From Heterostelium album PN500 (taxonomy: Eukaryota > Evosea > Eumycetozoa > Acytosteliales > Acytosteliaceae): a stretch of 64,000 nucleotides of DNA. Under the pieces are notes generated by a model, which saw nothing but the letters and a program-made list of their open reading frames with translations, was not told the origin of the DNA and ran no database searches. The position numbers and the translations under genes were made by a program. Positions 27,911-49,288 of the stretch are shown piece by piece. The stretch covers positions 1,922,001-1,986,000 of the forward strand of contig NW_008805065.1 of NCBI RefSeq assembly GCF_000004825.1. Reading direction: 5' to 3'. Within the stretch, counting starts at the first letter, position 1. Each line of letters starts with the position of its first letter.

Positions 27911-28576
27911 TTACCAATTTTCACTTAGTTGGGATGTTGGACATTTACATGGAGTGTGTTTTGGATTGAATGGTAAATTAGTATGCGATCCATCACAGTG
28001 AGGTGGTCGTTGGGAATATCGACAACCACAGAGTAACCACATACTCTGATTTCTGTCGAGTGTAAACTCTATAGGTTTATACTTTGTTCCGATATGTGAT
28101 TTGTCGCAAAACGGTTGATTCTTGGTTTGTCCACACGTACAATATTCGTAGACTACATCTTTTTTCAGACCTCTCACTGTGTAAGGACTGTACATTTGAA
28201 TTTTCAGAGGTATCAATTTACTACAATTACATTTACTGCAGATCACCTCGGTCTCTGCATCGATGATAGAGTTGCCCATCATCAGACTACCACTGGTAGG
28301 GTTGCTGGCGGGACTACTATTGCTGTCGTCAGTACTGATATCGCTGTCTTGATCGAGAGCTGGAGAAGGAAGAGTAGTAGATGAATCACAACCAATAATT
28401 ACATCGTTGTCATTCAAGTTCAAATTCTTTGAATTCGCAATAATTGATTGAATCATCGATTTGTCATCTTTATCGCTATCCTTACATTGGCACCGGTTTT
28501 CCAACTCCAAATGAATTTTCGTGTCTGAAACTTCATGAGAATGGGTTATTGTTTCCTCCAATTTTCTTGATGACAT
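27911..28576 (-). CDS. Double CDGSH iron-sulfur domain protein (CISD3-like)
   Basis: Single exon, 221 aa, starting at the ATG at 28576 (MSSRKLEET); the frame is open further upstream but without another ATG. Two CDGSH motifs lie near the C-terminus: residues 146-161 (CTCGQTKNQPFCDKSH) and 183-198 (CGCRYSQRPPHCDGSH). Each keeps the three Cys and one His that bind a 2Fe-2S cluster, as in two-motif CISD3/MiNT proteins. The first has Lys in place of the Gly. A Cys-rich CSKCNC (113-118) precedes them and an acidic Ser-rich linker fills 60-100. No clear mitochondrial presequence or transmembrane helix is visible, unlike CISD1/2 and CISD3. A role in iron-sulfur or redox handling is inferred; see the neighbours at 30333 and 31648. 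Confidence 0.88.
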   Translation of the reverse strand: MSSRKLEETITHSHEVSDTKIHLELENRCQCKDSDKDDKSMIQSIIANSKNLNLNDNDVIIGCDSSTTLPSPALDQDSDISTDDSNSSPASNPTSGSLMMGNSIIDAETEVICSKCNCSKLIPLKIQMYSPYTVRGLKKDVVYEYCTCGQTKNQPFCDKSHIGTKYKPIEFTLDRNQSMWLLCGCRYSQRPPHCDGSHTNLPFNPKHTPCKCPTSQLSENW

Positions 28577-31647: not shown

Positions 31648-32676
31648 TTAAATTATAGAACATCTACTTGGCTCTACGGCTTGTTGATCTTTCCTCAGAT
31701 GACCTATAAAATAATGATTGTTTAAGAGTTGAAGCATTGTCTTTGAGTGGAATTGAACGTTTTCAGTACCGTCTTTACCGGCGAATCTAATGAGTGCTCG
31801 CTTTCCACCTGGGTGTCGATCTATGTATGTTGTAATGTCGTAAACTTTATTCTGTATGATCATCCAACAGTCATCTATAGTACAGTGCTTGGAAATCTCT
31901 TCTAAACTGAAATGGTTGTTTTGATTCAGTGGGTCTTTCAAACTTGTTGGTGTATATTTTGGTAATGATTGTATTTTTACTTCTTGTTCTATATCCTGTT
32001 GTTGTTGTTGTTGTTGTTGTTCTTTTATCAGACTATCTTTTTCTATACTTTGTACTAATTGTTGTTGTGGTTGTTGTTGTTGAGACGACGTCAGTGTATT
32101 GCTGTTGCTGTTATTTAAATTTTTGATGTTTGTTGATTGTCTAAGTTGTCTTGTTTGCTTCTGATTACTTGTTGTATTGCTATTGTCATTTTGTTGCTTT
32201 TCAAACTTTATGTAAATTGGAGTTAGATTGCTGTTTGTTTCTTGGTTGAATTGCTTGTGTGTTGAATCGCAGTAGGGATAGGCTTTCGATTGCTGACAGG
32301 TGCACAGTGGTATCTTGATATTGGAACTCGCCAGTTTATCATTGTCGAACGAGTTGAAGAGGATATCGGATGCAGACTGACTTTCATTGGGCAGCGCTTC
32401 CGTAAAGTTTTTCAGTGACTGTGTAATGGTGTTCAGTGAGTGTGAGAGTGGTCTGTTGCTGCTGTGCTCTATCGTCACCTTGGTACCATCCAAGTTAGCG
32501 CTGTTGGAAACCATTCGTTTCTTCAAGATCGATGATGCAGTTGGAGGTGTCGATTCCTCTATATCCGGTATACCGCCGTTGTGCTCGAGCAGCAGCTCAC
32601 ACGAACACATCGATTTACACGATCTTGGTGATATCGATGAATGTGGTGGTGGTGTATTCATAGGTATTGGTTCCAT
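31648..32676 (-). CDS. CDGSH iron-sulfur motif fused to a cytochrome b5 domain, with CaaX end
   Basis: Single exon, 342 aa. Residues 125-140 (CTCQQSKAYPYCDSTH) form one CDGSH motif with all three Cys and the His; Gly is replaced by Ser. A Gln/Asn/Ser-rich linker (about 150-235) follows. Residues 257-327 are a cytochrome b5 domain: HPGG heme-ligand loop (His288), second axial His310 in FHSKT, and DDCWMIIQNKVYDIT upstream. The last four residues, CSII, form a CaaX prenylation box. An N-terminal CKSMCSC (20-26) echoes the Cys cluster of the CDGSH protein at 27911. One chain thus offers a 2Fe-2S site, a b-type heme and a likely lipid anchor, suggesting electron transfer at a membrane surface. Function is inferred from domains only. 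Confidence 0.85.
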   Translation of the reverse strand: MEPIPMNTPPPHSSISPRSCKSMCSCELLLEHNGGIPDIEESTPPTASSILKKRMVSNSANLDGTKVTIEHSSNRPLSHSLNTITQSLKNFTEALPNESQSASDILFNSFDNDKLASSNIKIPLCTCQQSKAYPYCDSTHKQFNQETNSNLTPIYIKFEKQQNDNSNTTSNQKQTRQLRQSTNIKNLNNSNSNTLTSSQQQQPQQQLVQSIEKDSLIKEQQQQQQQQDIEQEVKIQSLPKYTPTSLKDPLNQNNHFSLEEISKHCTIDDCWMIIQNKVYDITTYIDRHPGGKRALIRFAGKDGTENVQFHSKTMLQLLNNHYFIGHLRKDQQAVEPSRCSII

Positions 32677-44454: not shown

Positions 44455-47400
44455 ATGATATCAGAGAGTACACCTGATATTACATGTCCTTTTCATCATC
44501 TATTATGTAAATTGATAACACCGACCCAAGGATCATATGCTGGTCGTATCTACACACTCTGTCCCAATAGGATATGTTCATTCTCGAAATGGCATGACAG
44601 AGGTACCACTCTCTCACAGTTACTCATTAACAATAGTACTACTAGTACTAGTAATAGTAATACGACAACAACAACAACAACAATGCCAACAATGATACCA
44701 ACATTAACAACAAATGTTAATAATAATAATAATAATAACAATAATAGTGGCAATGACATTACTAGTAACAGCAACAACAACAACTACATTTCATCATCAC
44801 CAACACCACCACCACCACCACCACTTGTGAAACTAGATGTCATTAAACAAGAGTTACCGCTTCAACTTCCACTTAAACAAGAGCCAACGTTTCAACCTCA
44901 AATTAAACATGAGATATCATATCAACTTCCACTTAAACAGGAAATCAAGCAAGAGACTGCTTTTCAACCTTATCAGCCTCAAATTAAACAGGAGACATCA
45001 TATCAACTTCCACTTAAGCAAGAGTCAACATTTCAACCTCAGCTTAAGCAAGAAGTCAAACAAGAGATTACTTATCAGCTTCCACTTAAGCAAGAGACAG
45101 CATTTCAACCTCAGCTTAAGCAAGAGACAGCATATCAACTTTCACTTAACCAAGAAGTCAAACAAGAGACTACGAACTTTCAAATCAATGTTATTAAGAA
45201 TGAAGTTCAACCTACTTTATTACAGCCTCCTCAAAATAGTATAAAAGTTCCAGATATAGTTAATAATAGTTATAGTGGTAATAATAATAATAGTTATAAT
45301 AATAATAATAATAATAAAAATAATAATATCGATATAAGGAATGGCAGATCGGACGATGCAATTTTAATTAGTTCATCCGATGATGAAAGAGAAGAAGCAG
45401 CAGATCAAGGTGTAATTTCACAGACAGAGAGTATATCTGTAGATGACGATGGTAATGATGAAGACGATGGTATAGAGCTTGTAAATGATGACGACGACGA
45501 TGGCAACGTAGAAGATGACAATAGTATTTTAATAAACGATGACGATCAGATCATTTTCACACCAACACCACCTTCATATAATCCAAAACAACAACAGCAA
45601 CATGATAACATTAAAAACAACAATAGCGTAATCAATAACAATAATAACAGCTGTAGCAACAACAACAACAATAATAACAATAATAACAATAATAATAATA
45701 ATAACAGCAACAACACAATAGATCTTGATGATGATGATAACAATATAGATGTAGATAATTATGTTTCACCAATACCACCGAATTCTACAGCAAAGTATCA
45801 ATATCTACAACAAAAACGACAACAACAACAAATGCAACAACAACAAATAAAACAACAACAGCAACAACAACAGCAACAACAACAAACACCAAGTAAATAT
45901 CAATTGACTTTTATTGATATCAACGATAATCCACAGAGTAAAACGCAAATTCAGAATCTAAAGGTGATGAGAAGCGACTCGAATGAGGTCATCGTTGATT
46001 TTCAGTTGATCGATGATCAAATGGTGGGAACGACACACCCCGTTCCAACGTTACGCGAGACACGTCCACTGATAGATATCTTTGTAGAGGTGAAGGCACG
46101 ACGTGACCAATACGACATGTGGACATTCTCATTGGATCAGTATAATCGTGTGATGTTCCGACTGGTGGAAACATTCAATCAAGGCACTCGTTTCAACGTA
46201 TTCATACGAAAAGTACCACAACAAGTTTTAAATTTTCACAAAAATCCATGGTCTATGGCAAATGAATCATCGTCATCCAACAATTTACAATTACAGTTTT
46301 CACAACAACCACAACAATATCAACAGCTACTACTCCCACAGCTTTCACAGTTTCAACAATTTCAACAACAACAACTACTTCCACAAAAACCAATACAACA
46401 AAAACAACAAATACAACAACAAGATCTTACACAAAGTTCTATTCCTTCAAAGCTATTGGAAGCACTGTTACCGTTTCAAACGAAAGGATTACTTTTTGGA
46501 ATTCAACATCATGGAAAGTGCATGATTGCCGACGAAATGGGTTTAGGTAAAACAATACAAGCGTTGGCAATTGCATCTTTTTATATTCAAGAATGGCCTA
46601 TTTTAAGTATGTTTATGGATAGGTTACCTGTATTTTAAAAATATACTAATCAGTAATTTTTCAATAGTTATTTGTCCATCTTCATTGAGATACACTTGGT
46701 CTCGTGAGATTCAGAAATGGTTTCCAGAGTATACAGGAAGAATCAGTTTGATTACTACAGGCGATGGCAAAGCGAATTCACTGATAAACATTGTTAGCTA
46801 TGATTTGGTGACGAAACTTTACAATACAGAGTTGATGCCCAGAAACTTTAGAGTGATCATATGCGATGAATCTCATTATCTAAAGAATATAAACGCCAAG
46901 AGAACATCGGCAGTTTTGAAACTGATAAAGAGTGCCGTCAGAAGAATACTACTCACTGGTACACCTGCACTGTCGAGACCGATCGAGCTGTATCCACAAC
47001 TGGTTGCACTGGAGACACCGATCTATTCGAAGATGAATGAATTCGGACTTCGCTATTGTGCTGCATTCAAAGGTAGATACGGATGGGACTACACTGGAAA
47101 TTCACATCTACCAGAGTTACATGTTTTATTGGTAAAGTATAATCTAACAATCTATCTTAATTTTAATGTTAATGTTTTGTTTTGTTTTGTTTTGTTTTGT
47201 TTTGTGATTAACTTTTAGAGAGGTGTTATGATTAGAAGATTAAAGAGTACTGTCTTAAAGGAGTTGCCGCCAAAACATAGGAAACAGGTGTTTGTCGACG
47301 TTCCAATTAATCTTCAGAAATCGATTCAGGAAATGTTTAGTTCGACGCACAAGAAGGTGATGTTGAAAAATGGCAAGTTGGTCGAGTCGGAGCGCGCCAG

Positions 47401-49288
47401 GATGATGACGCTCTACCAGGAGAGTGGCCGTGCCAAACTACCGGGTGCACAAGACTACATTGTTGGACTGGTGAAAGAGAATAAGAAGTTCTTGGTGTTT
47501 GCACATCACACTGATATTCTCGATGGTCTGGAGCGATCGATTAAATCGACGGGCACCGGCTATATGCGGATCGACGGCTCGACACCGGCCGAAGCCAGAC
47601 AGACCTATGTCACGCGCTTTCAAAACTCGGACAAGTGTAGAGTTGCGCTGTTGAGTATCACTGCTGCCGGAACTGGTTTGACACTGACAGCTTCGTCGCT
47701 CGTTGTGTTTGTCGAGTTGTATTGGACACCCGGTGTTCTCAGGCAAGCGGAAGATCGTGTCCATAGAATCGGTCAGCGTGAAGACGTGCACATCCACTAT
47801 CTCATTGGAAAGAACACTCTTGACGACAAGATGTGGCCGACCATCTGTAATAAACTGGAGGTTCTTGGTGAGACATTGGACGGACAAGAAGAAATCCTAC
47901 ACACTGAGATTCACGATCTTAGAAGCAACACCAAATTAGATCAATTCATCGATGTTAAAACTAATATCAACAGCATTAACAACAATAATAATGTTAAACT
48001 ACAACCTATACCAACATCGACCAAACAAGAACAAGTCATCGATGTTGATGACGATGAACAGATATTTTCATTGATTGGAAACGAAGATCTTGCCAACAGT
48101 ACAAATAACTTTAACACCAGTAACTTTAATAACTTTAACAATGTCAACAACTTTAACAACAGCAATAAGCCGTATTTAGATCTACAACTACCGGGTGTGA
48201 TCACTGCGAATGGTGGTAACAATAATAGTACTTTGGTTAGCAATAATAGTTATAAAAACAACAACAAAATCAACAATGGTAGTTATAAACATAAAAGATG
48301 TCATGACTATCATGAGGATAATGATGAGGAATCGGGTGAGGAATGTAATTGTCAAGCAAAGAGAGTGGCAGAGTATTATAAGAACAAGTACGGTCAATCA
48401 CCTAGCAATAGTAAATACGGAAAGAAACTTAAAATGTCACCTACCAAATCTACCGCTGATAAATATAAGGCATTCCTACAGGTCAATCCAAACTATGAAC
48501 TTGACATCAAACCACAACCTACTTCACCGTCAAAGAGAACAAACCAATTACTTTTCCGTGGAAATGGAATCAGTAACAATAGCAATAGCAATAACAATAT
48601 CTTTAGTAGTAACAATAACAACAACAATAATAATATCTTTAGCAGTAATAATAATATTAACATCAACAACGGCAGCAACAATAACACTATCAAAACATAT
48701 AAATTCACAAATCATGATTCTGCTAGTTATTTGTCACCTGTATATAATAATAGTACATATTTACCTACAACAACGACAACGGCAACTTCACTTCCAACAA
48801 TTTCATCAACAACAACTCCACCACCACCTTATTATAGTACAACAAGAGAAATACCAAAACAAATAATGACATCGACAACAGTAGTTCCACCAATGGTCAT
48901 ACCAAATAGCTATAATAACTTCTACAACAACAATAATAATAATAATAATAATAATAACACCATCAACACTAATATTAATATGCATCAATCAGGAAGCATA
49001 GTTTCACCAATGTTTAATCAATTGAACAATAGAATCGTTTATAATAGCAATCAACAAGGAGCTACAAACCTTACATTCGCTCAACCACTCCAAAACACAC
49101 CAACATTGTGTAACAATGATAATTCGACAATGAACTACAACAACAATTACAACAACAACAACAACAACAACACAGTAGATATAGACTCTATCTTTAATAC
49201 GAGAAAAGAGTTTATAGAAGATATTGACGATGATACCACCACTCCATCAAAGCCAAGGAAATCGTCATCATCATCAAAATATCAATAA
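44455..49288 (+). CDS. smarcal1: SMARCAL1-type annealing helicase with GRF-like finger and SUMO-motif array
   Basis: Three exons: 44455-46606, 46668-47131 and 47219-49288; 1561 aa, much longer than animal SMARCAL1 (about 950) owing to Asn/Gln-rich insertions. The family re-anneals RPA-coated DNA and remodels stalled forks. Seen in order: a GRF-like zinc finger (C11, H14 or H15, C36, C41, W46); a run of Lys-Gln-Glu motifs (130-250); acidic segments; poly-Asn/Gln; a HARP-like block (DIFVEVKARRDQYDMWTFSL); and the SNF2 ATPase with DEMGLGKT (693-700), DESHYLKN (784-791), LLTGTPALSRP, RYCAAFKGRYGWDYTG, FAHH, ITAAGTGLTL and QAEDRVHRIGQ. These match SMARCAL1 rather than ZRANB3. The Asn-rich C-terminal tail has VIDVDDDE. 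Exons of the ATPase are much richer in GC than the rest. Confidence 0.93.
44842..45204 (+). repeat. Coding repeat: tandem KQE (psi-K-x-E) motifs in smarcal1
   Basis: Degenerate in-frame repeat units of about 12-20 codons such as YQLPLKQE and FQPQLKQE. Within residues 130-250 there are thirteen matches to hydrophobic-Lys-x-Glu, seven of them with Ile or Val at the first position (IKQE, IKHE, VKQE, IKNE). Confidence 0.85.
47174..47205. repeat. TTTTG tandem repeat in smarcal1 intron 2
   Basis: About six units of GTTTT fill the pyrimidine-rich part of the intron before the acceptor at 47217-47218. Confidence 0.75.

Follow-up and report, generated by a model that had tools for sequence, protein, structure and literature searches.

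A tandem array of hydrophobic-Lys-x-Glu tetrads and a cluster of SIM-like motifs in a SMARCAL1-like gene of Heterostelium album, a possible SUMO platform

SUMO-linked motors and scaffolds, and the amoeba locus

For human SMARCAL1, a SUMO site has been reported at K647, which is located in the ATPase core and not in an N-terminal array, according to PMC13213312. In yeasts, Uls1 and Rrp2 are SNF2 translocases acting on SUMO-modified proteins, and Uls1 possesses SUMO-interacting motifs (SIMs), as described in PMC8161396. Concerning PML and the engineered polySUMO-polySIM scaffolds, SUMO and SIMs jointly form droplets or nuclear bodies, as described in PMC8430037. These scaffolds resemble the proposed amoeba system by the combination of SUMO and SIMs and differ from it in that they are not DNA motors. 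Moreover, PML has few acceptor lysines, and engineered polySUMO chains are made of folded SUMO domains rather than of acceptor peptides.

The locus compared here with these systems belongs to H. album PN500 and was found in a window of 64,000 nucleotides, i.e. the whole stretch of DNA analysed (contig NW_008805065.1, positions 1,922,001 to 1,986,000). Its predicted product resembles SMARCAL1 by an ATPase core with 45% identity to a provisional human segment and by a low-scoring HARP-like stretch before the motor. Unlike SMARCAL1, it adds a probable N-terminal GRF-type finger, an array of [VIL]KxE tetrads and an acidic SIM-like cluster, and it gave no match to three patterns of the RPA32-binding helix. 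With Uls1 and Rrp2, the amoeba protein would share both the SNF2-family translocase and the orientation towards SUMO. Uls1, however, recognises the SUMO carried by other proteins and includes a RING ubiquitin-ligase domain, whereas the hallmark of the amoeba protein is its putative acceptor array; no RING domain is present among the three Pfam families found in it at E 1. As a whole, what is unusual here is the combination, the enzyme, the motif and the type of multivalency each being already known.

The SMARCAL1-like gene and its domains

The source genome comprises 32.9 Mb in 39 contigs, with an A+T content of 68.7% as measured on a 214-kb sample, window included. The SMARCAL1-like gene is carried by the + strand and consists of three exons, the spliced translation of which gives a 1561-aa protein without internal stop. 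Exon 1 (44455..46606) is an open frame containing the GRF-like finger, the array, the SIM-like cluster, the HARP-like stretch and the start of the ATPase, while exon 2 (46668..47131) continues the SNF2 ATPase and exon 3 (47219..49288) holds the remaining motor, Helicase_C and a low-complexity C-terminal tail. These limits were set from GT-AG pairs and from the fit to the helicase, without transcript, and the frame across intron 1 stays open with alternative GT-AG pairs too. Since the array and the SIM-like cluster both lie within exon 1, they are independent of the splice choices. The second intron contains a perfect TGTTT pentanucleotide repeat of 6.6 copies (47173-47205).

When the whole protein was scanned at E 1, Pfam returned three families: SNF2 (residues 679-936) and Helicase_C (residues 956-1057), both with scores far over their cut-offs, and a sub-threshold GRF finger (residues 10-49). 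The first part of the SNF2 ATPase (46465..46606, +) was placed by Pfam and by comparison with the human SMARCAL1 segment. Elsewhere in the window, on the - strand, a predicted protein (31648-32676) combines a cytochrome b5 domain (E 2.2e-20) with a CDGSH iron-sulfur motif, whose score of 29.1 bits is slightly below the threshold of 29.5, and a second CDGSH-type gene with two matched stretches lies nearby (27911-28576; E 4.9e-12).

The motor matched the provisional human SMARCAL1 ATPase segment over 422 columns with 45% identity and 369 bits. Eight other SNF2 loci, drawn from the 34 matching places in the genome, were compared with the same human segment; seven of them matched it, with at most 126 bits and 25-38% identity. 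Despite its strength, the match to SMARCAL1 is to be taken as a lead, because the human reference sequence is provisional. The designation SMARCAL1-like was thus chosen in view of a motor match that is the best when set against the SNF2 paralogues, a provisional reference and a weak HARP signal. The first-pass annotation had assigned the gene to SMARCAL1: this is sustained at the level of a lead by the ATPase identity and by a HARP match that is in the right place, weak and sub-threshold. Judging from the sequence, the gene may therefore encode a dictyostelid fork remodeller of the SMARCAL1 type, an assignment kept as a lead.

The HARP-like stretch (residues about 539-569; 46069..46161, +) has Pfam HARP as its top family, with 14.1 bits and an E-value of 0.035 for a cut-off of 25. 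The match at this stretch was absent from the Pfam scan of the whole protein and from the scans of the amoeba's own genome, even at E 10. The AlphaFold2 model of the stretch was poor (mean pLDDT 53.4) and its fold search gave no match at E 0.001, whereas all the matches of the PDB sequence search had E-values of 1 or worse. Another HARP-like match in the genome (L044, E 0.022) was rejected, as it sits in a WD-repeat-like frame.

At the N-terminus, residues 10-49 (44482..44601, +) form a probable GRF-type zinc finger, with C11, H14, C36 and C41, a Gly-Arg and a Trp. Scanned alone, it matched Pfam Zn_ribbon_GRF with 21.4 bits and E 2.7e-4, under the cut-off of 25.9, and it was one of the two matches to the GRF family in the genome at E 0.5 (E 0.019 for this finger). 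In the PDB search, RNF168 chains (E 0.13) came slightly ahead of NEIL3 (7omk; E 0.15 overall, 9.3 for the aligned stretch), with which the finger aligns at its Cys/His positions as well as at its Gly-Arg and Trp. Its structure model was also poor (mean pLDDT 54.7), and the fold search yielded no match at E 0.001. No report linking a GRF zinc finger with SMARCAL1 was found among open-licence papers. As for the RPA32-binding helix of animal SMARCAL1, no string of the protein matched any of three patterns, which is a weak test.

The KxE array and the SIM-like cluster

Thirteen [VIL]KxE tetrads are present in residues 130-250 (44842..45204, +), within degenerate tandem repeats of 30 and 102 nt. 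They start at residues 130, 140, 150, 160, 164, 177, 187, 197, 201, 211, 221, 235 and 247, with successive Lys-to-Lys spacings of 10, 10, 10, 4, 13, 10, 10, 4, 10, 10, 14 and 12. The thirteen hydrophobic-Lys-x-Glu tetrads counted by the first-pass annotation were thus exact, residue 130 starting at 44842 and residue 250 ending at 45204. Upstream of the array, a [VIL]KxD tetrad, VKLD, occupies residue 125 (44827..44838, +), and the sole array unit without lysine is LNQE at residue 231 (45145..45156, +). Within residues 121-262, all of the 14 lysines are part of a [VIL]Kx[DE] motif, vs. none of the 76 in the rest of the protein. If residues 121-270 are considered, 14 out of 15 lysines belong to this motif, the exception being IKVP at the far end, outside the limit of 262, and each of the 14 glutamates closes a [VIL][KN]xE.

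The array is a Q/P-rich segment without Pfam domain, and its composition suggests that the lysines would be accessible. Two types of units alternate, YQLPLKQE and FQPQ(I/L)KQE, accompanied by short inserts (IKQE or VKQE), and the tetrads at residues 125, 130, 164, 201, 235 and 247 are outside the context of the 10-aa unit. At the DNA level, periods of 30 nt (72-79% matches) and a super-period of 102 nt (82%) were observed, indicating that the array grew by tandem duplication.

The abundance of tetrads, which had been described as far above chance, was confirmed by two comparisons. Shuffling the array residues 20,000 times yielded 0.32 tetrads on average and never more than 4. In a set of 341 stop-to-stop frames with a length of 100 aa or more, the array frame reaches 13 tetrads per 125 aa, and the highest value in the 340 others is 2. 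These frames come from the window and from fetched loci of the same genome; they include the array frame itself, non-coding or overlapping frames and some overlapping loci, and exclude two loci that repeat the window (L001 and L011) as well as L002, whose tetrads were checked separately. The latter, a weak second genomic match of the array (E 0.30), was rejected as a second array, with at most one tetrad per 125 aa. A milder, repeat-aware null was obtained by shuffling a 10-aa unit and repeating it in tandem, in which case a [VIL]KxE was present 2.8% of the time. Since this proportion of shuffled units carries the motif, duplication accounts for part of the number 13, which is not in itself a proof of selection.

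A search of open-licence papers (titles, abstract starts and passages) brought up no SMARCAL1 with an array of this kind. Viral contigs (IMG/VR) were also searched with the ATPase and gave eight loci, none exceeding 2 tetrads per 125 aa, a search that is informative on the motor alone. Five of the IMG/VR loci (L036-L040) encode SNF2 proteins whose best segments are 33-42% identical to the amoeba motor.

Directly after the array, the three SIM-like motifs noticed in the first-pass annotation were all recovered, in the order AILISSSDDE, IELVNDDDDD and SILINDDD. By the pattern of a hydrophobic core plus acidic residues, they correspond to ILISSSDD (residue 303; 45361..45384, +), IELVNDDDD (residue 340; 45472..45498, +) and ILINDDD (residue 358; 45526..45546, +). 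Two further motifs are new: IDLDDDD at residue 422 (45718..45738, +), in the context TIDLDDDD (421), and a weak IDVD at residue 431 (45745..45756, +), in the context NIDVDN (430). Residues 295-470 thus contain five SIM-like motifs for a pattern that was defined after looking at the sequence, vs. 0.39 expected from 2000 shuffles (maximum 4) and 0.48 from 5000 shuffles with D/E kept fixed (maximum also 4). The other frames of the set of 341 have at most 3 such motifs in a comparable span, a number reached by four of them. It counts against the SIM reading that acidic low-complexity regions give rise to SIM-like strings. In the C-terminal tail, the VIDVDDDE listed in the first-pass annotation (residue 1145; 48035..48058, +) is indeed present and good-looking, but a single match does not exceed the chance level of this region (P 0.08 and 0.25).

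Probable codon-level constraint, candidate SUMO machinery and rival readings

The evolution of the array was analysed at the codon level by comparing its nine long units mutually and along a parsimony tree. This test was selected after the array had been inspected, and it deals with units that are related and short, with few events and possible gene conversion. The four core codons show a pS of 0.66 and a pN of 0.08, vs. 0.36 and 0.32 for the six codons that precede them (the lead); the pairwise pN/pS is 0.12 for the core and 0.88 for the lead. Among the changes placed on the tree, five out of six are silent at the Lys and Glu codons, seven out of ten at the four core codons and seven out of nine at the last three core codons, vs. 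eight out of 26 at the six lead codons (one-sided Fisher P of 0.029, 0.039 and 0.019, respectively). Against the neutral expectation, the binomial probability of at least five silent changes out of six is 0.0002, 0.0010 or 0.0035, for a transition weight of 1, 2 or 4.

In the 14 units, the first two bases of the Lys and Glu codons are invariant while the third bases vary, and the hydrophobic position swaps between I, L and V, staying in its class in 14/14 units. The first-pass annotation had opposed a selected motif to a plain slippage repeat, in which Lys and Glu are lost as freely as the neighbouring Gln. Inside the array this contrast holds in part: Lys is lost in one unit out of 14, Glu in none and the middle Gln in two, but the Gln at position -3 is kept in all nine long units, as invariant as the Glu. 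The constraint is therefore wider than Lys and Glu, and an aromatic residue occupies position -4 in eight of the nine long units. A constraint on the tetrad core at the protein level is likely from these codon patterns, its tie to SUMO being unproven.

As regards the host, a scan of the genome for Rad60-SLD (ubiquitin-fold) domains gave 43 matches, many of them in tandem arrays. The SUMO gene was hand-picked from these 43 as an isolated partial match (L035) and was spliced by eye. The candidate protein ends in GGC, and its best PDB match is a two-unit SUMO-2 chain (6e-35, or 1.2e-15 per unit). Concerning the enzymes, the genome holds one PIAS-type MIZ finger and eight places matching Ulp-type peptidases (best 1.8e-33, several with internal stops). 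One genomic match exceeded the cut-off for UAE_UbL, a domain of activating enzymes that we take to be the mark of the SUMO E1. An exon of a Ubc9-like E2, the best of 23 E2-like matches, is 63% identical to a provisional human UBC9 sequence over residues 48-138. With a SUMO gene and candidates in each enzyme class sought, the host probably has the SUMO machinery needed to recognise these tetrads.

The candidate SUMO itself carries a PKQE near its N-terminus (VPKQEGE, L035 368-412), which is close to the KQE core of the array units. In SUMO-2, the chain-forming site is located in the N-terminal arm.

The reading preferred here is that the array and the SIM-like cluster together act as a SUMO platform, recruiting the SMARCAL1-like enzyme to forks or retaining it there. 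Based on sequence features, this is put forward tentatively, at slightly less than an even chance, and a SUMO function for the array as such is given much the same standing, possible with doubt just prevailing. The platform would be the long N-terminal region, which is of low complexity and probably disordered. Starting from a 10-residue unit built on a consensus SUMO-acceptor tetrad, tandem duplication would have produced 13 sites. Selection for SUMO use would then have preserved the hydrophobic-Lys-x-Glu core, and most of the intervening residues would have drifted. The acidic-hydrophobic motifs may bind SUMO in cis or, at a stressed fork, on proteins nearby, so that a conjugated array and the SIM cluster would provide a multivalent, switchable and reversible hold on SUMO-rich repair sites. 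Beside this hold, DNA would be contacted by the SNF2 motor and probably by the GRF-type finger too. Simultaneous SUMO loading of lysines four residues apart is unlikely. Self-assembly or recruitment to SUMO foci, as suggested from the first inspection of the sequence, may be among the consequences.

The codon patterns bear directly on a first rival, a neutral or near-neutral expansion in a disordered linker, by which a founder LKQE would have been copied through unequal crossing-over or slippage with no SUMO role. The nested 30-nt and 102-nt periods denote duplication, the gene is rich in simple repeats (28 entries), and the 2.8% of shuffled 10-aa units bearing the motif, the unit without lysine (LNQE) and the two units with a different middle residue all agree with this explanation. 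It is nevertheless considered rather unlikely, given that silent changes prevail at Lys and Glu and not in the lead, and that every lysine of residues 121-262 belongs to a motif, even outside the unit register. The wider regularity of the units points to another possibility, namely that [FY]Q[LP][PQ][IL]KQE is a motif for a different reader, or belongs to a sticker-spacer condensation region with one aromatic residue per unit, the match to the SUMO consensus being incidental. The aromatic at -4 and the Gln at -3 (8/9 and 9/9) are about as regular as the tetrad, and the array region has 10 aromatics in 142 residues. However, the tetrad also stands without the full unit, in the IKQE and VKQE inserts as well as in VIKQE and VIKNE at the outer positions, and this possibility is held to be improbable.

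The third rival concerns the SIM-like cluster alone and may hold alongside each of the readings of the array. RPA70N has acidic amphipathic peptides among its known ligands, and the acidic-hydrophobic motifs could, instead of being SIMs, bind its basic cleft, or another acidic-peptide receptor, in replacement of the RPA32-binding helix, for which no similar string was detected by the three patterns. Animal SMARCAL1 associates with RPA-coated ssDNA, according to PMC10950228, which fits such a role. Against it, the whole genome gave no match to RPA_C or Rep-A_N at E 0.1, by an exon-by-exon search that is possibly limiting; this weighs little, since Rep-A_N was missed in 14/14 control genomes. 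On balance, an RPA ligand is held to be quite doubtful.

Returning to the SUMO platform, its most extended version would be a natural single-chain scaffold combining polySUMO acceptors and polySIM in a fork motor, recruited by SUMO density and using the GRF finger for ssDNA, the whole replacing the RPA32-binding helix; in this complete form it is unlikely. The length of the array would then set the sensitivity of the system and could shift fast by gain or loss of repeats. If the array works as read, it would be a natural counterpart of the engineered polySUMO-polySIM scaffolds and an alternative way of bringing SMARCAL1 to forks, in a group of organisms that includes a genetically workable laboratory model. 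Under the same condition, this fork remodeller would illustrate how simple tandem duplication can multiply a SUMO switch and how such a switch can be linked to a DNA motor.
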